37,511 bases of DNA from Tessaracoccus sp. OH4464_COT-324 (GTDB lineage: Bacteria > Actinomycetota > Actinomycetes > Propionibacteriales > Propionibacteriaceae), in NCBI RefSeq assembly GCF_003932855.1, contig NZ_RQYZ01000023.1:1-37511 (forward strand), written 5' to 3'. The position numbers were made by a program, and so were the translations under genes. Shown one piece after another: positions 7,222 through 20,838 of the stretch. A model generated the notes under the pieces. The model saw only the letters and a list, made by a program, of their open reading frames with translations, was not told the DNA's origin and did not search any database. How positions within the stretch are numbered: position 1 is the first letter of the stretch; the number at the start of each line of letters is the position of its first letter.

Positions 7222-8424
7222 TCATCTACCCGAGCCAGACCTTGGCTCTGGGGCAAAATCGTAACTAGGGGGAGGAGACCCGACAGGCCAGGTGATTACA
7301 CGTTTAACCTCGCCATGAGAATTGAAGGATTTTGCCCAGCCGATCTCCTGGAACCGCCCGTTAGCGCTATCGGGAGCATCGGAGGCGATGTCCTTTTGTC
7401 CACGGTTGAAATTATAACGATCCTCCGCATGGACAGTAATAGTCATGGTGACCATTCCATCTTTAACCTCGACATCAGCAGAACTCCACTGCTGGTAGCC
7501 GCCAATCGTTTTCTGCCAGCCCTCTGTTTTGGGGTAGTTGGGAGCCTCATGACTGGGGCCAGTGATCTGAAAAGATCCACCGCCCCGAGCGGCCATCTTA
7601 TCAGCTGCTTGTGCAGTTCGAGCTATCTCAGACTCGATATTCTTCTTTATAGCCTCATCCTCTCGGGCTCCCGCCTCATAGTCAAAGATCTTATCTTCTC
7701 CAGTGTTCCCCCTAAAGTGTTCGTAAAATTCGCAAGCGCGAGCCAAGTCTGGTCGAAGCAAGCGGGCACCCAGAACCTTTGTCCCCCATTTGTGCCACTC
7801 AAGGTGATCGGAAGCTGTGGGCTCCTCAGAATCCCACTCAAAGTCCTCATCCCACTGAATCTCTGGCTTCTTGGGAGGACCGAACTTGTACCCATCCGGG
7901 CCTTCTTCTCCTTCAAGACCAGCATCAGCTGGAAATGCGAAATGCACCTTGGAGAGAGCATCAGATACCCTAAATCCTCCAAAGAAATCAATGACTAGCA
8001 TATCATGCCTAGCCTTTTTCACCAGGTTAGCTATGAGAAGTTGCTTGACCAATGGACTGAATCCTGCGGGAGCAGCCATGATTTTATACAGGGCGGCTTC
8101 AGCGCTCATCGCCACCCTTAGCATCCCGTTCCTAGTCTCAGCTACTATGCCGCTAGCTTCGTTCATAGCCGAAGAAGTCGCAGCAAGTTCTGATGAGAAA
8201 ATAGCCAAGCTTCTAGGCGACCCTTCCCCTCCATTGAAGTAGGATAGAAACGATTCGAGAGCCGGGCCTTCATTCCGCGAAGCGAGAAAGACCCCCGTCT
8301 CATTTGCACGGTCGGCGGATTCAGCCAAGTAGCTGGCGGCTGACGAAAAAGAGTAAGCGCTTCCCGCCAAACTTTCTGCAGAGCTCGGGAGAGTCACATT
8401 AGCCATAGACAGAATAATACTCAT
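7222..8424 (-). CDS. Candidate type VII-secreted polymorphic toxin, unknown C-terminal domain
   Basis: 400 residues. The first 130 or so are helical and rich in Ser and Ala, as in WXG100/LXG-type leaders (SLAGSAYSFSSAASYLAES). The middle has an acidic stretch with several Trp (about 190-215). The C-terminal 100 residues contain a motif around EDRYNFNRGQKDIA and NGRFQEIGWAKSF, followed by ITWPVGSPPP near the end. The C-terminal pattern looks like a discrete module, but I cannot name its fold or activity. The ATG follows the stop of the small upstream gene by two bases, and the Shine-Dalgarno GGAGG lies inside the end of that gene, so the two are coupled. No signal peptide is visible, as expected for ESX cargo. 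Base composition is clearly lower in GC than the flanks. Toxin activity is inferred from architecture and from the adjacent candidate immunity genes. Confidence 0.65.
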   Translation of the reverse strand: MSIILSMANVTLPSSAESLAGSAYSFSSAASYLAESADRANETGVFLASRNEGPALESFLSYFNGGEGSPRSLAIFSSELAATSSAMNEASGIVAETRNGMLRVAMSAEAALYKIMAAPAGFSPLVKQLLIANLVKKARHDMLVIDFFGGFRVSDALSKVHFAFPADAGLEGEEGPDGYKFGPPKKPEIQWDEDFEWDSEEPTASDHLEWHKWGTKVLGARLLRPDLARACEFYEHFRGNTGEDKIFDYEAGAREDEAIKKNIESEIARTAQAADKMAARGGGSFQITGPSHEAPNYPKTEGWQKTIGGYQQWSSADVEVKDGMVTMTITVHAEDRYNFNRGQKDIASDAPDSANGRFQEIGWAKSFNSHGEVKRVITWPVGSPPPSYDFAPEPRSGSGR

Positions 8425-8426
8425 AG

Positions 8427-8732
8427 CTATCCTCCAAGAAGAGAGTTAAGAAGTCGAGCGATCTTTTCACAGGCATCTTCAGCCAAACGGTATGAACTCG
8501 CAGTCTGCCCCATCTTCTCAGACTCCTTGCTTAGCTTGACAGCATGCAAAGCGAGGCATTGAGATGCATTACTTTGAACTACTTTTGCGGACACGGCTGC
8601 CATTCTATCCGTCGCTGATCCACTGTCATGTACATCACATTTAAAGTTACTACCTACCTCGCTCAATTGACCGCTGATAATCTGCAATTTCTCAGCGCCA
8701 GCATCCCACGAAGAGGGAACGAATTTCACCAT
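8427..8732 (-). CDS. Small helical WXG100-like partner protein
   Basis: 101 residues, predicted almost entirely helical, beginning with a short SSWDAGAEKLQIISGQLSEVG segment and ending in a second helix. Size, lack of a signal peptide and position two bases before a candidate secreted toxin fit the small helical partners (WXG100-like or Lap-like) that pair with type VII effectors. A strict WXG turn is not present. Trp9 is followed by Asp-Ala-Gly, so membership of the family is inferred. The start at 8732 has only a weak ribosome-binding site (AGG), but a TATAGT -10-like hexamer lies just upstream. Confidence 0.6.
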   Translation of the reverse strand: MVKFVPSSWDAGAEKLQIISGQLSEVGSNFKCDVHDSGSATDRMAAVSAKVVQSNASQCLALHAVKLSKESEKMGQTASSYRLAEDACEKIARLLNSLLGG

Positions 8733-9593: not shown

Positions 9594-11303
9594 CTACTCG
9601 GCGCGGGCCAGGTTGGTGACCAGGCCGAGCAGCACCAGCCCGGCGGCCGGGAAGAACACTGCCCACGGAGCCTGCTCCATGTGGCTGACGGAGTCAACCA
9701 ACAGCTTCCCCCACTCCGGGGAATCGTGGCCCGCGCCGAGACCCAGGAAACCGAGCCCGGTCAACGCCAACGCCAGATGCGGCAGCCGCACCAGCGCATG
9801 GCCGAAAACCGGCCGGAACACGCTCGGCAGAATGTGCCGGCGCGTGATCCACCAGCGCGACGCCCCCGAGGTGATCGCCGCCTGGTGAAAGCCCGCCGCC
9901 CGTGCCTCTGCCGCGAGGGTGCGCGCGTGCACGGCCAGCGGAATCCAGCCGACGAGGCAGATCGCCAGCCAGGCGCTCGACATTCCCGGCCCGAGAACCG
10001 CGGCCAGCACCACGCCGAGAAACACCGACGGCACCGCGTTGAGGATGTCGGCGATCCCGGCGGAGCCCCTGCGCGACGCGAGACCGACGAGCAGACCGAT
10101 CGCCAGGCAGATGGCGGTGAGCGCCACGGCGGACCCGATGGTCAGCCACGCGCCCTGCCCCACCCGCGACCACACGTCGCGCCCCACATGATCGGTGCCG
10201 AGCGGGTGCGCCCAGGAGGGACCCTGGTGCCGCGACAGCGGATCGACCGCGTTGCCACGCAGCCAGCCGCCGACGACAAGCAGCGCGAGCAGCGCGACGC
10301 TGAGCCACCACCCCCAGCCCCGCCGCACGGTGCTGATGTGGCGCACCATCGTCGCCCCCTGGCCTGCGCCCAACGCCGGGGCCATCAGCCAGTGGTGGAG
10401 CAGGTTGCCGACGGCCCCCACTGCCGCGCCCAGCACCACCAGCACGGCCATCGCCGCCTGCACGACGGGCACGTCCTGCGCCAGGGCGGCGTTCAGTGCG
10501 GTGCGGCCCAGGCCCGGGATCGCGAACGTGTCCTCCACCACCACGGAGGCCCCGACGATGCCCGCCAGCAGCAGGAGCACCTGCGGTAGCACGACGGCGA
10601 GCGCACGTCGCGCCACCTCCGCCGAGATCCGCATCGGGCGGGCGCCGTTGGCGCGCCAAGTGCGCACCCAGTCCTCCCCCGCGACGGCCGCCACTGCGGT
10701 CATCAGCACCCTGAGCAGCACCCCAACGGAGGCTACGGCGATGGCCGCCACCGGCAGCACGGCGTGCTGGCTGCTGCGCCAACCCGTGGCCGGAAACCAC
10801 TGAAGCCGGACGGCGAACACGTAGGCCAGGAGAACGGCCAGCACGAACTCGGGCAGCGCGGCGAGCGTCGCGGATACCGCCCGCAGCACCCGCGACGTGC
10901 CCGGCCGTCCGCGCCCAACGCCGGCGATCATCGGTGCCACGAGGAGGAAGCCGAGGGCCAGCGTGGTGGCCGCCGCCATCCCGGACAGGTTGAGGGAAAC
11001 CAGCAGCGCCGAGCCGACCTTCTCCCCCACCGGTCCTCCGCTGACCCACGACACCCCGAAGTCTCCCTGGCAGGCCTTCACGAGCCAATGCCAGGTGCCG
11101 ATGACGGGATTCTCCGGCAGGTCCAGGCTTTCCCGGATCGCTGCCAGCGCAGCCGGGTCCGCGTCCCGCTCCCGCTGCCGGGCGCGCAACACCGTGCGCG
11201 CCGGGTCGCTGCCGGTGAACCACGGCAGCGCCCCCGCGAAGAGCGCGGCGGTGAGGAATGCCCCAGCCAACAGCAGGGCGGAACGCAGACTCGATCTGTT
11301 CAC
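9594..11303 (-). CDS. Fused DppB-DppC-type ABC transporter permease
   Basis: 569 residues joining both inner-membrane permeases of a peptide/nickel-type importer. The first half (about 1-300) has the DppB layout, with a large periplasmic segment and the motif EDWVRTWRANGARPMRI before further membrane helices and VVVEDTFAIPGLGRTALNAA. The second half (about 320-569) has the DppC hallmarks HPLGTDHVGRDVWSRV and the coupling loop EARAAGFHQAAITSGASRWW, ending at GLGFLGLGAG. Most relatives encode these as two proteins. The start is GTG at 11303, only eight bases after the stop of the binding-protein gene and without a clear ribosome-binding site, so translation is probably coupled. It is the last gene of a five-gene operon headed by a cobalamin riboswitch. 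The substrate is inferred to be cobalt (possibly chelated) or a corrinoid. Confidence 0.9.
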   Translation of the reverse strand: MNRSSLRSALLLAGAFLTAALFAGALPWFTGSDPARTVLRARQRERDADPAALAAIRESLDLPENPVIGTWHWLVKACQGDFGVSWVSGGPVGEKVGSALLVSLNLSGMAAATTLALGFLLVAPMIAGVGRGRPGTSRVLRAVSATLAALPEFVLAVLLAYVFAVRLQWFPATGWRSSQHAVLPVAAIAVASVGVLLRVLMTAVAAVAGEDWVRTWRANGARPMRISAEVARRALAVVLPQVLLLLAGIVGASVVVEDTFAIPGLGRTALNAALAQDVPVVQAAMAVLVVLGAAVGAVGNLLHHWLMAPALGAGQGATMVRHISTVRRGWGWWLSVALLALLVVGGWLRGNAVDPLSRHQGPSWAHPLGTDHVGRDVWSRVGQGAWLTIGSAVALTAICLAIGLLVGLASRRGSAGIADILNAVPSVFLGVVLAAVLGPGMSSAWLAICLVGWIPLAVHARTLAAEARAAGFHQAAITSGASRWWITRRHILPSVFRPVFGHALVRLPHLALALTGLGFLGLGAGHDSPEWGKLLVDSVSHMEQAPWAVFFPAAGLVLLGLVTNLARAE

Positions 11304-11311
11304 GGGTCAGT

Positions 11312-12850
11312 TCACTTTTTCTTGACAGTATTCTCGGTGATCATCTTCCATTCCAGCGGGTCCTGCGCCAGGCCGGAGAGTTCGTTAACGCGCGCGATGC
11401 GCACGTGCTCGTGCACCACCGGGATGTAGGCGCCGCCGCCGAGGATCAGCGCCTCCGCTTGCACGGCGGCCGCCCGGCGCGCGGCCATGTCGGACTCGGT
11501 GGAGACATCTTCGACGATCTTGTCCACCGCCGGGTCGCACAGGAACGAGAGGTTGTATCCGCCCTCGCAGGTGAAGTCGAGCTGAATGATGCTCAGCGGA
11601 TCGTTGGCCTTGGACATGTACATGCGTGACAGCAGCACCATGTCGAACTTGCCGGCCATGATGTCCCCCTCCATAACCGAGTATTCCTTCACCACGGGGG
11701 TGTCGACGGTGAACCCGGCCTTGCGCAGCTGATCCGCGATGACGGTGACGGTCTCGGGCAGCTCCGGGCGGTCGGAGTAGGTGGCGATGGTGATCTTGGC
11801 GCCTGCGGGGTCCTTCGCTTCTGCGTAGGTGGGCGCTGAGCGGTTCTTGCTCCACTCCAGGTCGCCGCGGAAGATGCCCTGGGCAGGGTCGGCGTGCGAC
11901 GCGAAAATGGTCTTCGCGATCACATCGCCGTCGATCGCCTTGGCGGCGGCGACGCGCAGCCCGGCGTCGGCAAACGGCCCGGATTTGGTGTTCAGATAGA
12001 GGCCCGACGTGCGCGGAATCAGCCGCGATTCGACGGTGAAGCCGTTCATGTTGGGCAGCTGCGCGATCGGTACGTTCTGGAAGACGTCCAGTTCGCCGGC
12101 GCGCATCGCGTTCACCCGGGCTTCGGCCTTCGGGATGAACTGGACGTCGAGCCCGGAGGATTTCGGCGCGCCCCGCCAGTAGTCAGCGTTGGCTTCGAGG
12201 GTGGCGTGGGTGGTGCCGTCGAGCTTGGTCAGCTTGAACGGTCCGGTACCTGCCTCGATGGGGTTGGGTTTGTTCTTGTCCGCCTGGTAAGCCTTGGGCG
12301 CGAGGATCACCATGTCGGGGTTCGCGAAGCGCATGATGAGGATCGGATCCGGTTTCGCGGATTTCACCAGCACGACGTCCTCGCCCTCGGCGGTGATGCT
12401 CAGTTCGCGCCCGGAGACGGTGCTGGGGGCTGGGTTGGCGGTGAGGGCAGCGTTCAGGCTGGCCGCGACGGTGGTGGCGTTCACCGGGGTGCCGTCGTGG
12501 AATTTGGTGTCGGATCGGAGCGTGAACTTAGCCGTCATCTCGTCGACCATCTCAAACTTTCGGGCCAGCTCAGGCTGCACCCAGCCCTGGGGATCGATGT
12601 GGATGAGCGCCTCCGAGACCCCGAGCCGCATGAGGCTGGAGGCGTCGTCGGTGTACGGGGACAGGTCGGCGACGGGCGCGAAGTTGAGCGCCACCCGCAG
12701 CCGGGTGCTGTCGGCCGCAGGTGCGGAGGACTCCCCGCTCGCCGAGGCGGATGAGTTGCTGTCCTGGTCGCCCGTCACCACACAGCCTGTGGCCAGGGTG
12801 AGCACGGCGGTTCCTGCGGCCAGGAGGCCGAGGAGTCTGCGTCGTTTCAT
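11312..12850 (-). CDS. Family 5 extracellular solute-binding lipoprotein
   Basis: 512 residues. A basic start (MKRRR), a hydrophobic run and the lipobox ATGC (Cys23) show a lipoprotein, followed by a Ser/Ala-rich linker. The mature part has the SBP_bac_5 (DppA/NikA/OppA) layout, including a segment like DSTRLRVALNFAPVADLSPY near the mature start, the motif KFTLRSDTKFHDGTPVNA, and GTGPFKLTKLDG with later YLNTKSGPFADAGLRVAAAKAID. It would capture the ligand outside the cell and deliver it to the fused permease. The ATG overlaps the stop of the MFS gene (ATGA). Placement under a cobalamin riboswitch favours cobalt, a cobalt chelate or a corrinoid as ligand. The protein family alone cannot distinguish these from peptides or nickel. 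Confidence 0.9.
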   Translation of the reverse strand: MKRRRLLGLLAAGTAVLTLATGCVVTGDQDSNSSASASGESSAPAADSTRLRVALNFAPVADLSPYTDDASSLMRLGVSEALIHIDPQGWVQPELARKFEMVDEMTAKFTLRSDTKFHDGTPVNATTVAASLNAALTANPAPSTVSGRELSITAEGEDVVLVKSAKPDPILIMRFANPDMVILAPKAYQADKNKPNPIEAGTGPFKLTKLDGTTHATLEANADYWRGAPKSSGLDVQFIPKAEARVNAMRAGELDVFQNVPIAQLPNMNGFTVESRLIPRTSGLYLNTKSGPFADAGLRVAAAKAIDGDVIAKTIFASHADPAQGIFRGDLEWSKNRSAPTYAEAKDPAGAKITIATYSDRPELPETVTVIADQLRKAGFTVDTPVVKEYSVMEGDIMAGKFDMVLLSRMYMSKANDPLSIIQLDFTCEGGYNLSFLCDPAVDKIVEDVSTESDMAARRAAAVQAEALILGGGAYIPVVHEHVRIARVNELSGLAQDPLEWKMITENTVKKK

Positions 12851-14124
12851 CGTTTTCCTTTCGTTGGAGTCGGTTCGGAGCGTCGTCGACAGAATGCGAC
12901 AACGCCGAGTGTGGAGGCGGCAGACACCGCTGCCAGAGCAAGCCAGGGAACGGGCGCCAGGCCCGACGGTTCAGCAGACAGCGGCAGGATGAATCCGATG
13001 GCGGTGCTGCCGACGAGCACTGCGGCCCCGCCGATGGAGGCGAGCATTCCCAAGTACGTGCCCATCCGTTGCCCACCCGCGAGGTCAGCCACGGCGGCTC
13101 GCGCCGCAGGCAGCACGAGTATCTGGCCAAGATGAAGCCCGACGACGAAGAGCGCTGAGGGCAGGTAGGAAAGCACCCCGGGCAGGGGTGTGAAGGGCGC
13201 GAAGCCGGCGACCCCAAGGAACCCCAGGGTGATCAGCGCGTAGCCCCAGCCCAGTACCCGGGAGATCCGCCAGCGCGCGACGGCGCGCGAGATGGGCAAT
13301 TGCAGCACGAGAACGACAATGGCCGCCAGCGCGAACAACCAGGTGATATTGGCGCTGGGGGCGCCGATGCGTTCCAGCTCCACCGGGATGGCGAGGTAGA
13401 GCTGGTTGTAACTCAACAGGTAGGTGCAGTGGATGAGAGCAAACAGCAGAAAGTGTCGGTTGGCGAGCACGTCCCGCAGGGAGGAGCCCACCCGGCTGGG
13501 GGCGCTGGCTCGGGCCTCAGCCGGCAGCCAGCGGAGCTGGGCCAGCAGGATCACACCAAACACCCCGGCGGCGACGAAGCAGGTCGCTTCGAAGGGCACG
13601 ACGAGCAAAATCCCGCCCAGCAGAGGACCGACGATAGTGCCCATTTTGGCGGCCATCACCTCCAGCCCAATGACTTCAGTTCGTCGCGGGCCTCCCTTGG
13701 CCTCCAGTTCGCCAGCCCACACGGTCAGGGCGGATTCCACCGCCGGAGAGAAGAGGGCAGCCGCAAAACCGATGAGTGCCACGCCCAGCGTGACAGACCA
13801 AGGGTCACGCGCCAAACCAAGACCGACGAAACCCGCGATGCGCACGGCCACTCCGATGAGGATGATCTGCTTGACGCCGAAGCGGTCGGCCAGCGCCCCG
13901 CCCAAAAAGAACAACCCCTGCTGGCAGAAGGTGCGCAGGCCCAAGATCAGCCCAACAGCCCAGCCGGCCAAGGCCAGGTCCTGAGCGAGGTGGGCAGCGA
14001 GGAACGGCACCACCAGGTAGAAGCCGACGTTAAACGCGAACTGGGTGACGACCAGTAGACGCAAGGCTGCCGGCAGTCGCCTCAGCAGGGCAATGGGGTT
14101 ACCTCTCCCGGGTCGTTTCAGCAT
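12847..14124 (-). CDS. MFS transporter embedded in the ABC importer operon
   Basis: 425 residues with about 12 hydrophobic segments. The loop 2-3 region GLRTFCQQGLFFLGGALADRFGVKQII is the MFS GGxLADRxG motif. It starts one base after the stop of the upstream ATPase gene and its stop overlaps the start of the binding-protein gene, so it belongs to the same transcript. Its closest organisational parallel is CntE, the staphylopine exporter of Staphylococcus aureus, which is encoded with a nickel/peptide-type ABC importer (CntABCDF). That suggests export of a small chelator which the ABC system takes back with metal. No chelator-synthesis gene (CntK, CntL or CntM-like) is in the window, so the export role is inference. 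Efflux or uptake of another compound remains possible. Confidence 0.88.
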   Translation of the reverse strand: MLKRPGRGNPIALLRRLPAALRLLVVTQFAFNVGFYLVVPFLAAHLAQDLALAGWAVGLILGLRTFCQQGLFFLGGALADRFGVKQIILIGVAVRIAGFVGLGLARDPWSVTLGVALIGFAAALFSPAVESALTVWAGELEAKGGPRRTEVIGLEVMAAKMGTIVGPLLGGILLVVPFEATCFVAAGVFGVILLAQLRWLPAEARASAPSRVGSSLRDVLANRHFLLFALIHCTYLLSYNQLYLAIPVELERIGAPSANITWLFALAAIVVLVLQLPISRAVARWRISRVLGWGYALITLGFLGVAGFAPFTPLPGVLSYLPSALFVVGLHLGQILVLPAARAAVADLAGGQRMGTYLGMLASIGGAAVLVGSTAIGFILPLSAEPSGLAPVPWLALAAVSAASTLGVVAFCRRRSEPTPTKGKR

Positions 14125-14125
14125 G

Positions 14126-14911
14126 TCACGCCCCCGGTTGGGCGGGGACCGCGCCCACCAGTGCCCGCGTCTCGGCTGCTTGCGGCGACTCGAAGAGCGC
14201 GGGAATCGGGCCGGACTCGACGACCCGCCCCTGGCTCATCACCAGCACCGAGTCGCAGAGATAACACACGGCCCCCAGGTCGTGGGAGATGAAGATGAGC
14301 CCCACCTGCTCGGCCTCGCAAATGTCCCGCAGGGTGGTCATCACCTGGAGCCGAACCAACGCATCCAGGGCGCTCACCGCCTCGTCGGCGACGATGACGG
14401 CGGGCGACGGCGCGAGGGCCCGGGCGATCGCGACGCGCTGCCGCTGCCCGCCGGAGAGTTCTCCCGGGCGCCGGTCGGCGAGCGACCGGTCGAGCCCCAC
14501 CGCGTCGAGGCATTCGAGCACCCGCGACGTGTGGTCGCCTCCGATGCCGAGGCAGTGCAGCGGTTCCCGGACGCAGTCGCGGATGCGCAGGTGTGGGTTG
14601 AGCGAGCTGGACGGGTCCTGCGGCACGAACTGCACCTGTCGCCTAAACCAGGTGAGGTCCGCGCCCACCTGAACCGGGCGGCCGTCGAAGGAAACCTGCC
14701 CGGTGTCCGGGGTCTCCAGCCCGAGAAGGAGCCTCATCAGGGTGGATTTCCCGGAGCCGGATTCGCCGACGATGCCGAGGCGCTGCCCGGCGCGCAGGCG
14801 CAGGCTGATGCCGTCCACGGCGCGCACGTCGGGCGTTTTTCGCAGGGCCGCGAGCAGGCCGGGAACGCGGTAGGTGCGGCTGACGTCGCTCGCCGACAGC
14901 AGTGCGGTCAT
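14126..14911 (-). CDS. ABC transporter ATPase, DppF/NikE type
   Basis: 261 residues. Walker A GESGSGKS lies at 49-56, the Q-loop region reads FVPQDPSSSLNPHLRI, the signature is LSGGQRQRVAIARAL, Walker B is VIVADEAVSALD and the H-loop is FISHDLGAV. The SSLNP motif and the short extension before Walker A are typical of the second ATPase of peptide/nickel importers. The ATG overlaps the stop of the first ATPase gene (ATGA), and the MFS gene follows after one base. It hydrolyses ATP with the first ATPase as a heterodimer to drive uptake through the fused permease. Confidence 0.92.
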   Translation of the reverse strand: MTALLSASDVSRTYRVPGLLAALRKTPDVRAVDGISLRLRAGQRLGIVGESGSGKSTLMRLLLGLETPDTGQVSFDGRPVQVGADLTWFRRQVQFVPQDPSSSLNPHLRIRDCVREPLHCLGIGGDHTSRVLECLDAVGLDRSLADRRPGELSGGQRQRVAIARALAPSPAVIVADEAVSALDALVRLQVMTTLRDICEAEQVGLIFISHDLGAVCYLCDSVLVMSQGRVVESGPIPALFESPQAAETRALVGAVPAQPGA

Positions 14912-15723
14912 GTCAGCCCTTTCGTGAGGCGTTGCAGGGAGGCGCAGGCCGCGGGCAGCGCGGTCGCCGAACTGGCTCGGAGGAGATCGCAGACGTACTC
15001 GTGCGGCGGGTCGTCGACGATGGCTGTGGTTGGGCCGTCGGCCACTTTGACGCCGCGGCGAAGCACGACGAGGCGGCTACACAGCAGCGCGGCCACCGCT
15101 ATGTCGTGGGTGATGAACATCAAGGCGGTAGCTGCGCTGAGCCCGGCGAGGACTTCCAACACCCCGGCCTGGACGGTGGTGTCGAGCGCGGAGGTGGGCT
15201 CGTCGGCGATGAGCAGGGCCGGGTTCGCGGCCAGGGCCAGCGCGATCCCGACGCGCTGGCGTTGGCCGCCGGAAAGCGCGCCCGGGTAGCGTCGGGCGGT
15301 GCTCTTCGGGTCCGGGAGCTGCACCTTGCCCAGCAGTTCCACCGCCTGTCGTCGCGCCTCGGGCGCAGATATTCCTTTGGCACGTAGCGGCTCGGCCACC
15401 TGATCGCCGACGGTGACCAGCGGGTTCAGCGCGGTCCTGGGGTCTTGGGCCACCAGACCGACGGCTTGGCCGCGCAGCCGGCGCAGCCGCTTTTCGGGTA
15501 GCCCGACGATCTCGACGCCCTGGAGCTGGACGGAGCCGGTGACGGTGGCGGTGACGGGGAGGAGCCCGAGCAGCGCGGAGGCGGTCATGGATTTCCCGGA
15601 CCCGGACTCACCGATGATCCCCACGCGCTCGCCGGGGTTGATGGTGAGGCACAACGAATCGAGCGCGGTCACGTCGCCGAACCGCACGGTCAGGTCACAC
15701 ACCTGGGCCACTGGGGTGGTCAA
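14908..15723 (-). CDS. ABC transporter ATPase, DppD/NikD type, first gene of the riboswitch operon
   Basis: 271 residues from a TTG start at 15723. Walker A GESGSGKS lies at 38-45, then AQDPRTALNPLVTVG, signature LSGGQRQRVGIALAL, Walker B LLIADEPTSALD and H-loop FITHDIAVA. The frame is open back to 15807, but that upstream part lies inside the cobalamin riboswitch. The strong ribosome-binding site GGAAGGAG (15728-15735) stands four bases from the TTG, so TTG is chosen. The conserved domain also begins right there (VAQVCDLTVRFG). It is the first cistron and the direct target of the riboswitch, with the other four genes following by overlap or gaps of one to eight bases. Confidence 0.9.
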   Translation of the reverse strand: MTTPVAQVCDLTVRFGDVTALDSLCLTINPGERVGIIGESGSGKSMTASALLGLLPVTATVTGSVQLQGVEIVGLPEKRLRRLRGQAVGLVAQDPRTALNPLVTVGDQVAEPLRAKGISAPEARRQAVELLGKVQLPDPKSTARRYPGALSGGQRQRVGIALALAANPALLIADEPTSALDTTVQAGVLEVLAGLSAATALMFITHDIAVAALLCSRLVVLRRGVKVADGPTTAIVDDPPHEYVCDLLRASSATALPAACASLQRLTKGLT

Positions 15724-15727
15724 TGCT

Positions 15728-15735
15728 CTCCTTCC
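15728..15735 (-). promoter_or_regulatory. Ribosome-binding site that sets the TTG start of the first ATPase
   Basis: GGAAGGAG on the minus strand lies four bases before the TTG at 15723 and directly abuts the 3' arm of the riboswitch regulatory hairpin (15736-15754). The abutment suggests that forming the hairpin hinders ribosome access. Confidence 0.75.
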
Positions 15736-15869
15736 GGACCATTGCGCGAGGTCCACGAATGACTGCCGGCCAGGTGTTCGGACTCGCGGCCAATGCTGGC
15801 CGCCCACCGTTGCGCGTCAGTCCCGGATTCTGACCGGGTTTCCCTGGGCCCTCGAAAGTGCCGCCGACA
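15736..15869 (-). ncRNA. Cobalamin riboswitch with regulatory hairpin
   Basis: Read on the minus strand, the core has GGGAA, GGTCAGAATCC, CTGACGCGCAACGGT (15806-15844) and a B12 box of the form AGTCCGAACACCTGGCC (within 15764-15785). The order and spacing are those of the cobalamin riboswitch. A closing stem pairs UGUCGGC (15863-15869) with GCCGGCA (15764-15770). A GC-rich P5 hairpin spans 15786-15803. Downstream, GGACC/GGUCC forms a hairpin (15736-15754). The AUUG of the P5 loop can pair with the CAAU of that hairpin loop, the kissing interaction known for this class. The hairpin touches the Shine-Dalgarno of the first ATPase gene, so control is probably at translation initiation, with cobalamin binding shutting the operon down. 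The compact length (about 106 bases for the aptamer) suggests reduced peripheral stems. Confidence 0.9.
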
Positions 15870-15952
15870 TGATGAGTACGAGTCAAACCCTATGCAAACC
15901 CGTCCGAGACACGCAAGGTCTCGCCCGGGGAAGTCCCTTCGGGCTGGGCGCA

Positions 15953-18897: not shown

Positions 18898-20838
18898 TCA
18901 GTCCTCGTATTTTGTCCCGTAGCGCTCTTTATAGGCTTTATTGAGGTAATCGATCATGTGACCGTTAACCCCATTTTCTGCCGCACGCTTCACCTTATCC
19001 AAAGATTCCTTGTCGAAGTGATCGACCCTGAGACCAAGAAGCCCCTTGTCTTCCGGGGAGAGCGCGGGAAGGTTGAATTTGGTACCCGGAGCATCTGAGG
19101 CAAGGGTTACTGCTTGCACTTGCGTGAGGATGTCATTGGTGGTTCGGTAGGCGCGGATGAGCCCTCCGTTGGCCGCGCGGTCCACCTCGGCAATCGTGGT
19201 GCCGTTCGCAGCGGCGATGTACCTCTTCGTCGCCTCGCTGACGCCCGCGGCGTTCGCAGTGACCGCTGGGCTGTCGGTCAACAAGGCGGAGACTGCCGCG
19301 AGGCGCCCGCCAAGGGAGTGCCCGCCGAAGACGACCTTCCTGGCGTTGCCGGATTGCTCGATCGCCCCGGCAATCCCGATGGCTTGCACAGTCTGAAGGC
19401 CTGCGACCCTCGAACCGGGAATGTTTTCGAGAGCGAAATCTTGTATCAGCTTTCCATCCGACCCCTTGAAGATCACATAGTAGCGATCCCCGTTAGCGTA
19501 GACTTTCGTCCTCAGCCCGGTAGCCGGATCCGTTAGCATATGTTTTGACAGCCCAAGCTCTCTGAGCTGGGCGTCCGTGGCGACGCTGAAACCTGCAGGA
19601 AGTTCCTTATTATCCTGCTTTTCTTCGGCGAGGTGTTGCATGAGTCGGAGGAAGTCTTCGTCACCTTTCTGGGCGACCGTTCCGGTCGTGAGCGCTGCGA
19701 AACTTGTTCCCCCTGCTGCGGACCCCCCCGAGCCGAGTGCCGCGGCGGCGGACGAGAACTGGTTCCCGATCTCTCGCACCTGGTCCACAATGGGGCCGGC
19801 CTCGCTCAGCAGGGCCTGCGTGTGCGTGGTGACTACACTCATCGCCCCGGAGATTATCGCTGCCGCCACGGCGAGGAACGCCTCCAGCGCTCCGGGAACT
19901 TCCATGAGGATCATCGCCGCATAGGCTTGGAAGGCGCCCAGGATCTCCCCCGCAGCTCTCATTTCCTCCTCAAGCGCTGCCCTGCGCTTGCTCGCCGCTA
20001 TCGAGCCCAGCTTCCCCGCCGAGTCGCCGAGAGCTTTAGCGGCTTCCGCCGCCCGAGTCAGGCAGCCTCCTGCGGCACGAGCGCTGGCCGAGAAGGCGTC
20101 GAACGCGTCGCCGAACCAGTTTGGCAGTTTCCCGGGCAAGGACTCTATCTCGACCGCTCCCCCTCTCATCGCGCTGGCCACTCGCGCTGCGCTGGAAACG
20201 AAACCGGAGATGCTGCCCGGATCCCCTCGAAACCTCTCCACCAACTGGCTCAACCTGGCGAACATCGACTTCACCGGGCCACCCGCCGGCTCAGGGATAC
20301 CCGAGAGAACGCTCATCGCGGTGGACTCTCTGGCCAAGTCGGAAAGGTCTGAGGGAGGGCCGGCCGCGGCGCCTCCGCCGCCGAAAGAGCCAGTCGCGCT
20401 CGCCCAGGCCCCCTGCGAGAGGAGAGGAGCCCTTTTAGAGGCTCCAGAAGCGGCCAGATTCATACCGACTCTGCTGGTGTTTTCCCCGGAGAAAGAATTG
20501 AATGTAGACGCCGCCGGGCCGCCCCAGTAACCGGAAAAAACCTTCTCCACGCTGGCGGCCCTGTCCTCCGCGCACCTGTAGTCGTCCGCTGTCGCCAGCA
20601 AGCCACCCCCCATCCCCGTGACGCCGGCACCCACGGCGTCGAGGAAGTCACCCACATTGGCGGACGCGGACGTGTAGGCCCCCGAGGTCAACGACTGCAG
20701 AATCTTGGAGAAGGCAGACCCACTGGGAGGCGTGGGTTGGCTCGTTCCTTTCAGGCGGGATCCCGCCCCGTTCGCCGCCCACGAAGCCCTGTAGATCTCG
20801 TCCGGGCTGAAACCGACGCAACTCACTGAATCACGCAT
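18898..20838 (-). CDS. WXG-type secreted effector with C-terminal class 3-like lipase domain (second copy)
   Basis: 646 residues without a signal peptide. The first 250 residues or so are helical, with GYWGGPAASTFNSF near 100 and, after a linker, PGKLPNWFGDAFDAFSASA, both of which resemble WXG turns of ESX cargo. After a long helical middle the C-terminal 220 residues form an alpha/beta-hydrolase: YYVIFKGSDG, FALENIPGS, VVFGGHSLGGRLAAVSA with nucleophile Ser508, RAYRTTNDILT with Asp569 and NGHMIDYLNKAY with His627 as likely triad. It is a paralogue of the upstream gene. The start is unsure: the AAGGG before ATG 20838 abuts it, and GTG at 20826 fits the paralogue better. It probably cleaves lipid esters after type VII secretion. 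Target and immunity protein are unknown. Confidence 0.8.
   Translation of the reverse strand: MRDSVSCVGFSPDEIYRASWAANGAGSRLKGTSQPTPPSGSAFSKILQSLTSGAYTSASANVGDFLDAVGAGVTGMGGGLLATADDYRCAEDRAASVEKVFSGYWGGPAASTFNSFSGENTSRVGMNLAASGASKRAPLLSQGAWASATGSFGGGGAAAGPPSDLSDLARESTAMSVLSGIPEPAGGPVKSMFARLSQLVERFRGDPGSISGFVSSAARVASAMRGGAVEIESLPGKLPNWFGDAFDAFSASARAAGGCLTRAAEAAKALGDSAGKLGSIAASKRRAALEEEMRAAGEILGAFQAYAAMILMEVPGALEAFLAVAAAIISGAMSVVTTHTQALLSEAGPIVDQVREIGNQFSSAAAALGSGGSAAGGTSFAALTTGTVAQKGDEDFLRLMQHLAEEKQDNKELPAGFSVATDAQLRELGLSKHMLTDPATGLRTKVYANGDRYYVIFKGSDGKLIQDFALENIPGSRVAGLQTVQAIGIAGAIEQSGNARKVVFGGHSLGGRLAAVSALLTDSPAVTANAAGVSEATKRYIAAANGTTIAEVDRAANGGLIRAYRTTNDILTQVQAVTLASDAPGTKFNLPALSPEDKGLLGLRVDHFDKESLDKVKRAAENGVNGHMIDYLNKAYKERYGTKYED

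Follow-up and report, generated by a model that had tools for sequence, protein, structure and literature searches.

A cobalamin riboswitch-headed operon for a metal-type ABC importer and an MFS carrier in Tessaracoccus, a candidate for cobalt-chelate uptake

The staphylopine (Cnt) system of Staphylococcus aureus is encoded by the gene set CntABCDF-CntE. Among the actinobacterial opine clusters of one group (n=24), passages of a survey describe 14 with FecCD importers and the other 10 with both types (PMC7438024). Importers of the NikABCDE kind are placed behind a predicted B12 riboswitch in Clostridium tetani and Desulfitobacterium hafniense in passages of Zhang et al. 2009, where these Clostridia systems are set apart from the nickel-specific ones (PMC2667541). 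In Streptomyces coelicolor, passages of two papers link SCO0475 and SCO0476 to Zur (PMC4726154, PMC10320115), and SCO0472 and SCO0474 are listed in a passage of a third (PMC6103462). Here we describe an operon that shares features with these systems. It lies in a stretch of 37,511 nucleotides, referred to as the window, of Tessaracoccus sp. OH4464_COT-324 (contig NZ_RQYZ01000023.1, C134 in our numbering; genome of 2.76 Mb in 217 contigs). According to the open reading frame (ORF) list and Pfam, five tightly packed genes, encoding two ATP-binding cassette (ABC) ATPases, a major facilitator superfamily (MFS) transporter, a substrate-binding lipoprotein and a two-domain permease, run on the minus strand from 15723 to 9594 behind a cobalamin riboswitch. 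We give an even chance to the reading that this is a B12-repressed uptake system for a cobalt chelate whose MFS protein exports the chelator.

How secure is the riboswitch? A reading made from the window's letters and ORF list (the sequence-only reading) had called it a clear cobalamin riboswitch. By score alone it is not clear: the RF00174 gathering cut-off is reached, but by a small margin (33.0 vs 31.5 bits), and the single-strand folding energy of the leader is no better than that of shuffles (z 0.57). Stronger evidence comes from an alignment of six homologous leaders. Two of them, in the window and in L007, head full operons, and four (L022, L045, L046, and L047) head MFS genes that have no ABC neighbor (L-, G-, and P-numbers denote loci, genomes, and proteins of the comparison set). 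The six leaders have four helices in common, P1, P4, a P6-like helix, and P13, with 21 pairs in all; the helix names were assigned by comparison with the Rfam consensus. As aligned, 98.4% of the 126 cells are paired and the covariation score is 0.308, and in neither measure did any of 500 shuffles reach as high. Five pairs changed on both sides; this number is also reached by 45 of the 500 shuffles and is therefore weaker taken singly. Sliding the alignment by 1-3 columns as a control left only 21-52% paired, and all 126 cells pair once nine letters of the L007 row (P1 strand) are shifted by hand. P13 keeps its five pairs in all six leaders, one of them changed on both sides, and the letters CGCG are invariant in both loops L5 and L13, a possible kissing loop. 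Because the six leaders share helices with covariation, the leader is judged to be a genuine cobalamin riboswitch, with cobalamin binding itself predicted. A chance match to RF00174 was rejected on the covariation, although fold energy alone gave nothing. Thus, the B12 control proposed by the sequence-only reading is supported by comparison more than by score.

The RF00174 scores of the related leaders scatter around the cut-off. L007 (30.6 bits) and L022 (31.0) fall just below it, L047 (38.6) lies above it, and L045 and L046 do not pass it. When a model built from the six leaders (R1) was run over 47 sources, there were 19 matches at E up to 1. None lay at an operon promoter of the 21 relatives outside the clade. 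Two of these relatives had a match in another place: L014, where it precedes a Peripla_BP_2 gene, and L015 (E 0.84).

The start of the first ATPase gene in the ORF list (15807, for a frame of 14908-15807) was rejected, as this position falls inside the aptamer. The gene most likely begins at TTG 15723, because the Shine-Dalgarno sequence GGAAGGAG precedes it and aligned GTG starts occupy the matching position in L008 and L009. Since P13 adjoins the Shine-Dalgarno sequence and L5 and L13 both keep CGCG, we infer a translational OFF switch: once the leader RNA has bound sufficient cobalamin, contact between L5 and L13 would stabilize P13 next to the ribosome-binding site, and the operon would no longer be translated. 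The operon is likely to have a promoter of its own. Its neighbors in the host are an enoyl-CoA hydratase (menB-like) gene and a GDPD gene. In L007, it sits upstream of SUFU and IF-3 genes, and these flanks are conserved in L008, L009, and L022; operon and leader therefore occupy two different places.

Evidence that importer and exporter belong together comes from genomes in which they have parted. The nearest named relatives of the MFS protein among 25 loci are those of Arachnia propionica strains (70-71%), and the protein is present in 11 of 39 genomes of the genus (E up to 1e-50). In four of these (G092, G177, G194, and G165, holding L022, L045, L046, and L047, respectively), the MFS gene lacks ABC neighbors of this kind, and its leader aligns with that of the window. 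The same four genomes carry a separate five-gene NikABCDE-type system elsewhere, with unfused permeases, and RF00174 is found ahead of each (86.7, 90.0, 96.0, and 86.3 bits, in the same order). The SBP (substrate-binding protein) of this system in G092 (L090) scores 499 bits with a nickel SBP model (cut-off 600) and matches the nickel-binding protein 3t66 (E 6e-102). In other words, the parted MFS and ABC genes each lie behind a predicted cobalamin riboswitch and the halves remain in one B12 regulon, where the MFS leaders of L045 and L046 fall below the Rfam cut-off and rest on the alignment.

A NikA-type SBP occurs in 6 of the 39 genomes and an orthologue of the fused type (71% or more) in 5, and none has both. 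One genome, G117, has the NikA type behind an R1 match (37.3 bits, E 4e-4). It also has a relative (40%) of the fused type, and next to this a relative of the window MFS was not found. Another, G206, has a NikA-type fragment at a contig end and a third ABC type with an MFS gene. A protein of 735 aa (P0049), among the 120 relatives listed, is a fusion of ATPase and MFS. Because both parted halves are riboswitch-headed and because of this fusion, there is good evidence from sequence comparison that exporter and importer serve one task, and the partnership proposed in the sequence-only reading gains support. The MFS protein is the most widely kept part: its gene shares operons with two ABC types and stands by itself where the genome has a third. 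In G092, RF00174 matches 11 places. Nine were assigned mostly by eye: apart from L099, which gave no clear assignment, they precede corrin-synthesis genes, CbiM, and BtuF-type systems (L101 is a Peripla_BP_2 protein), and no chelator synthase was recognized after them. The other two precede the MFS gene and the Nik-type ABC genes. As a separate observation, a back-to-back pair of divergent cobalamin riboswitch matches separates two binding-protein-like genes of [Pseudopropionibacterium] massiliense (L100 8491-9007).

Outside the clade, related systems are widespread; they occur in Streptomyces, Nocardiopsis, Glycomyces, Saccharothrix, Actinosynnema, and others, and 7998 scored candidates included 1598 MFS relatives (E up to 1e-40). 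In the sample of 21 outside relatives, 12 have the SBP, the fused permease, the two ATPases, and the MFS gene together; in 8 (L012, L013, L014, L016, L017, L019, L020, and L021), no such ATPase pair is in the run, the contig of L020 being short, and L095 holds no relative of the window MFS. What regulates these operons? The dyad TGAWAAYNRTTWTCA, which we take to be the Zur-type box, was sought, allowing up to 2 mismatches, in a region that runs from 350 bases ahead of the start of the first gene to 60 bases past it, several of these starts being estimates. The consensus was settled after the first promoters had been inspected, so that the counts are partly fitted. Sixteen of the 21 relatives have a box (L013, L014, L015, L017, L018, L019, L023-L026, L028-L031, L050, and L095), and L012, L016, L020, L021, and L027 have none at that threshold. 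By contrast, none is present in the eight leaders of the riboswitch clade (window, L007, L008, L009, L022, L045, L046, and L047), and the best site in the window promoter has 5 mismatches. In the same 657 kb, background counts on both strands were none with at most 1 mismatch and 6 with 2, which leads to an expectation of 0.0037 boxes per promoter region. The reports on Zur in S. coelicolor bear on this system only if SCO0475 and SCO0476 are homologues of genes of the window type, as we presume.

Two other metal boxes were considered. A nickel box of the form TTGC-N9-GCAA, presumably of the Nur type, was rejected, as it had no strict match in the 25 loci and 5 in 958 kb. Mismatches to an iron box numbered 4 in L048 and L021, 5 in L010, and 7 in L008, L009, and L011, against 3 counts with 4 or fewer on both strands of 958 kb, and this box was not used. 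Other features of the relatives' loci were also seen. A GNAT acetyltransferase gene precedes the SBP gene in L012 (5785-6324) and L014 (5844-6392), and by eye similarly in L016 and L017, and all four have a similar TGC...GCA dyad upstream, near the gene start. In Streptomyces clavifer, a cysteinyl-tRNA-synthetase-type gene follows the MFS gene (L017 11260-12660) and is possibly a zinc-starvation paralogue.

The Zur-type boxes in 16 of 21 relatives are the first point for an alternative in which the window system still imports zinc or nickel, or their chelates. B12 control would then tie it to a need that grows under B12 shortage, for example the need for the metals of B12-independent enzymes. 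The nearest structures of the lipoprotein are nickel-binding proteins, and the host has a class I ribonucleotide reductase, a B12-independent enzyme with another metal, behind a cobalamin riboswitch. However, no metE was noticed behind the six RF00174 places of the host, which were read partly by eye with no search for metE itself. Moreover, the unfused partner ABC of the sister species is riboswitch-headed, and the one such promoter tested, that of L090, has no Zur-type box. We regard zinc or nickel import as unlikely.

A maximum-likelihood tree of 31 MFS proteins suggests how the two kinds of control are related. The six rows with leader support make up one set with two rows that lack an aptamer (98/97). 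All 9 rows labelled riboswitch fall in a 13-row set (98/94), with the Zur rows outside it; this set also holds the two aptamer-less rows and two Dermatophilaceae rows with no switch, and the labels of L011, L048, and L049 rest on weak evidence. The regulator labels require 6 changes on the tree, against a shuffled mean of 14.7. Both one riboswitch gain with losses and two gains would fit. The family to which the window system appears as a sister is actinobacterial, and most of its members have Zur-type boxes. Because 16 of the 21 relatives but none of the eight clade leaders have such a box, the comparison suggests that a metal or metal-chelate system was re-wired from zinc to B12, supplying cobalt for B12 synthesis; in the Arachnia lineage, the cobalamin riboswitch would have replaced Zur-type control. 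Because the root is a midpoint root and L050 has a long branch, we only infer that Zur control came first.

The two aptamer-less loci, L008 and L009, retain all five genes. By eye, L008 has apparent scars of the outer stem and P13 beside the Shine-Dalgarno sequence, and in L009 nothing remains. The third ABC type (L011, L048, and L049) has a short aptamer-like core that was first spotted by eye. RF00174 gives the L048 core 29.0 bits, below the cut-off, R1 matches L049 (E 0.07) and L048 (E 0.09) weakly, and L011 has no match at E up to 1 with either model. These are taken as probable aptamer cores. In L048, an iron-box-like dyad (1082-1100; 4 mismatches of 19) lies just before the weak core, and double control by iron and B12 is possible there.

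What does the importer carry? The best matches of the lipoprotein, by sequence and apparently also by fold, are nickel-binding proteins at 21-23% identity, namely SaNikA (4xkr) and a protein of Bacillus halodurans (3t66). Against curated nickel SBP models it scores 185 bits with NF045468 (cut-off 600) and 91 bits with TIGR02294 (cut-off 393), and so reaches neither cut-off. The permease is a single protein of 569 aa for which nickel/cobalt permease models score best, below their cut-offs. A system of the metal type rather than the ordinary peptide type is supported, and the gene content and order given by the sequence-only reading were borne out, with all parts present on the minus strand.

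The regulator itself is a cobamide sensor, and in a survey passage riboswitch-controlled orthologues for B12 transport outnumber those for cobalt transport 26 to 12 (PMC3766115). Both facts favor traffic in corrinoids, in which the ABC importer would take up a cobamide, cobinamide, or corrinoid fragment and the MFS protein would export another corrinoid. This is quite unlikely, for the SBP is of the nickel/peptide class and not of the BtuF class, of which the host has another member (Peripla_BP_2), and the Zur-type boxes of the relatives are ill-suited to a corrinoid substrate. No CbiM- or BtuF-class protein was found among the Pfam content of the five operon proteins.

The host probably makes its own B12. 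It has CbiM, a BtuF-type protein (Peripla_BP_2), and corrin-synthesis genes. At E up to 0.001, RF00174 matches its genome in six places, and in five the score is over the cut-off. Besides the operon's own, there are matches ahead of the class I ribonucleotide reductase, the BtuF-type protein, and a corrin methylase that is followed by CbiM after about 8 kb. CbiM is present in 31 of the 39 genomes, the host counted, and an argument that the operon is the only cobalt importer was rejected, as the host has CbiM. NicO occurs in 1 of 39 and CbtA in 1 of 39 over its cut-off and in 2 at E 0.001, neither in the host. Two further host riboswitches were observed. One of 42.5 bits (L054 10425-10554, minus strand; host C185:30424-30553) comes after an SBP_bac_5 ABC operon, on the strand opposite to it, with nothing but a 35-aa reading frame downstream, as in an orphan switch, a lost gene, or antisense control. 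The other (39.2 bits; L055 8418-10919, minus strand; host C139) lies where the frame of a secreted-looking protein of 833 aa begins. This protein has Thr-Pro repeats, an LPKTGA end, and no Pfam match, and is possibly a surface B12-binding protein; by eye, the next ORF is EcfT-like.

Which chelator might be involved? The sequence-only reading had pointed to staphylopine-type loci and opine synthases. The opine dehydrogenase CntM (PF10100) was not found in the host genome, in a search whose controls also gave no match. Among 22 holder genomes (L013, L020, and L028 of the 25 loci not included), it was found in one, Actinosynnema, at 660 bits, and in none of five genomes of the host lineage; because of the Actinosynnema match, the search is seen to work. 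A NAS-like gene (PF03059, which we take to cover CntL) was found in none of the 39 genomes, its control matching in 1 of 14, a weak row, and an IucA/IucC-type synthetase for siderophores independent of nonribosomal peptide synthetases (NRPS; PF04183) was likewise found in none of the 39. The opine link is therefore rejected for this lineage on these three families, NRPS families not having been searched. As for co-occurring genes, no opine-type synthase of these families was found in the host lineage, and cobalamin genes are present, as corrin-synthesis genes, in the host. Of the proposal that cobalt enters by way of an exported chelator, the cobalt part gains support from the B12 regulon and the metal-type system, and the opine part does not.

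That no synthase of the tested families (CntM, NAS, IucA/IucC) was found is consistent with the scavenging of foreign chelates by a host that makes no chelator of its own. The MFS protein, which resembles MdtH and has NorA as its nearest solved structure by sequence, would then remove the emptied foreign chelator or be a drug-type exporter carried along. Against this, the MFS protein is the most widely kept part of the system, is fused to an ATPase in P0049, and keeps its riboswitch leader when alone. Scavenging is considered very doubtful.

In the cobalt-chelate reading, the operon would encode a high-affinity uptake system for a cobalt chelate. The lipoprotein would capture the metal-chelator complex, the two-domain permease and two ATPases would import it, and the MFS protein would carry the free chelator back out or export a newly made one. 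A fuller version, which we hold tentatively and consider rather improbable, is a complete cobaltophore cycle. Under B12 shortage, the MFS protein would export a chelator of an unrecognized pathway, which would be re-imported loaded with cobalt by machinery taken from a zinc-chelate system through the swap of Zur for a riboswitch. One machinery family would in that case be tuned to different metals in each lineage by regulator exchange alone. No dedicated cobalt-acquiring metallophore turned up in our literature search, nor did the term cobaltophore among the papers listed. A transporter-exporter pair with each half behind a B12 riboswitch when split is a concrete candidate. If a B12 riboswitch did take the place of a zinc repressor, nature would offer here a clear example of a regulator redirecting a metal system.

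Features of the operon and its leader in the window
Feature	Position	Strand	Details
Candidate promoter	-10, 15887..15892; -35, 15916-15911	-	TAGGGT (-10) and TTGCGT (-35), read from sequence; downstream of menB
Cobalamin riboswitch aptamer	15751..15883	-	RF00174; 33.0 bits vs gathering 31.5; E 7.1e-5 for the window
P13 regulatory hairpin	15736..15754	-	GGACC-TCGCGCAAT-GGTCC; loop has CGCG, as has aptamer L5
Shine-Dalgarno sequence	15728..15735	-	GGAAGGAG; immediately 3' of P13; same letters at same position in L007
ABC ATPase, NikD/OppD type	14908..15723	-	PF00005; NikD/OppD models, below their cut-offs
ABC ATPase, NikE type	14126..14911	-	PF00005; best NCBIfam models NikE, under their cut-offs
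MFS transporter, MdtH-like, candidate exporter	12847..14124	-	PF07690; MdtH model 141 bits vs cut-off 469
Substrate-binding lipoprotein, NikA-like	11312..12850	-	SBP_bac_5
Fused permease	9594..11303	-	NikB-like and NikC-like halves in one chain; two BPD_transp_1 stretches

Elsewhere in the window, ORFs that by eye resemble ESX/LXG-type secreted proteins flank the operon on both sides (7222-8732 and 18898-20838, minus strand).

How does the operon compare with described systems? In the literature covered (listings, starts of abstracts, and passages), no description of a B12-riboswitch-controlled operon of ABC and MFS genes was found. Within that scope, the fused-permease/MFS module under a B12 switch, the split regulon with both halves switched, and the exchange of Zur for B12 control all seem new. 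The suggestion of the sequence-only reading that the combination may be undescribed therefore holds for the module; a riboswitch before NikABCDE had already been predicted in the two Clostridia. Those NikABCDE systems are like the window's in being nickel/peptide-class ABC importers under predicted cobalamin riboswitch control. In the passages on them, no MFS partner is mentioned, whereas the window has an MFS gene, a fused permease, and a more distant SBP. The unfused importers of the sister species (L090-L093) resemble the Clostridia kind. With the Cnt system, the window shares an SBP_bac_5 ABC importer combined with an MFS protein, an exporter in Cnt and of predicted direction here. It differs in its riboswitch regulator, its fused permease, and the lack of any synthesis gene of the CntM or NAS type among those found, and its SBP appears closer to SaNikA than to CntA. 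The Zur-box operons of Streptomyces and relatives (16 of the 21) consist of the same protein families at ~37-52% identity and likewise have a fused permease, but they carry a Zur-type box where the window carries a riboswitch.

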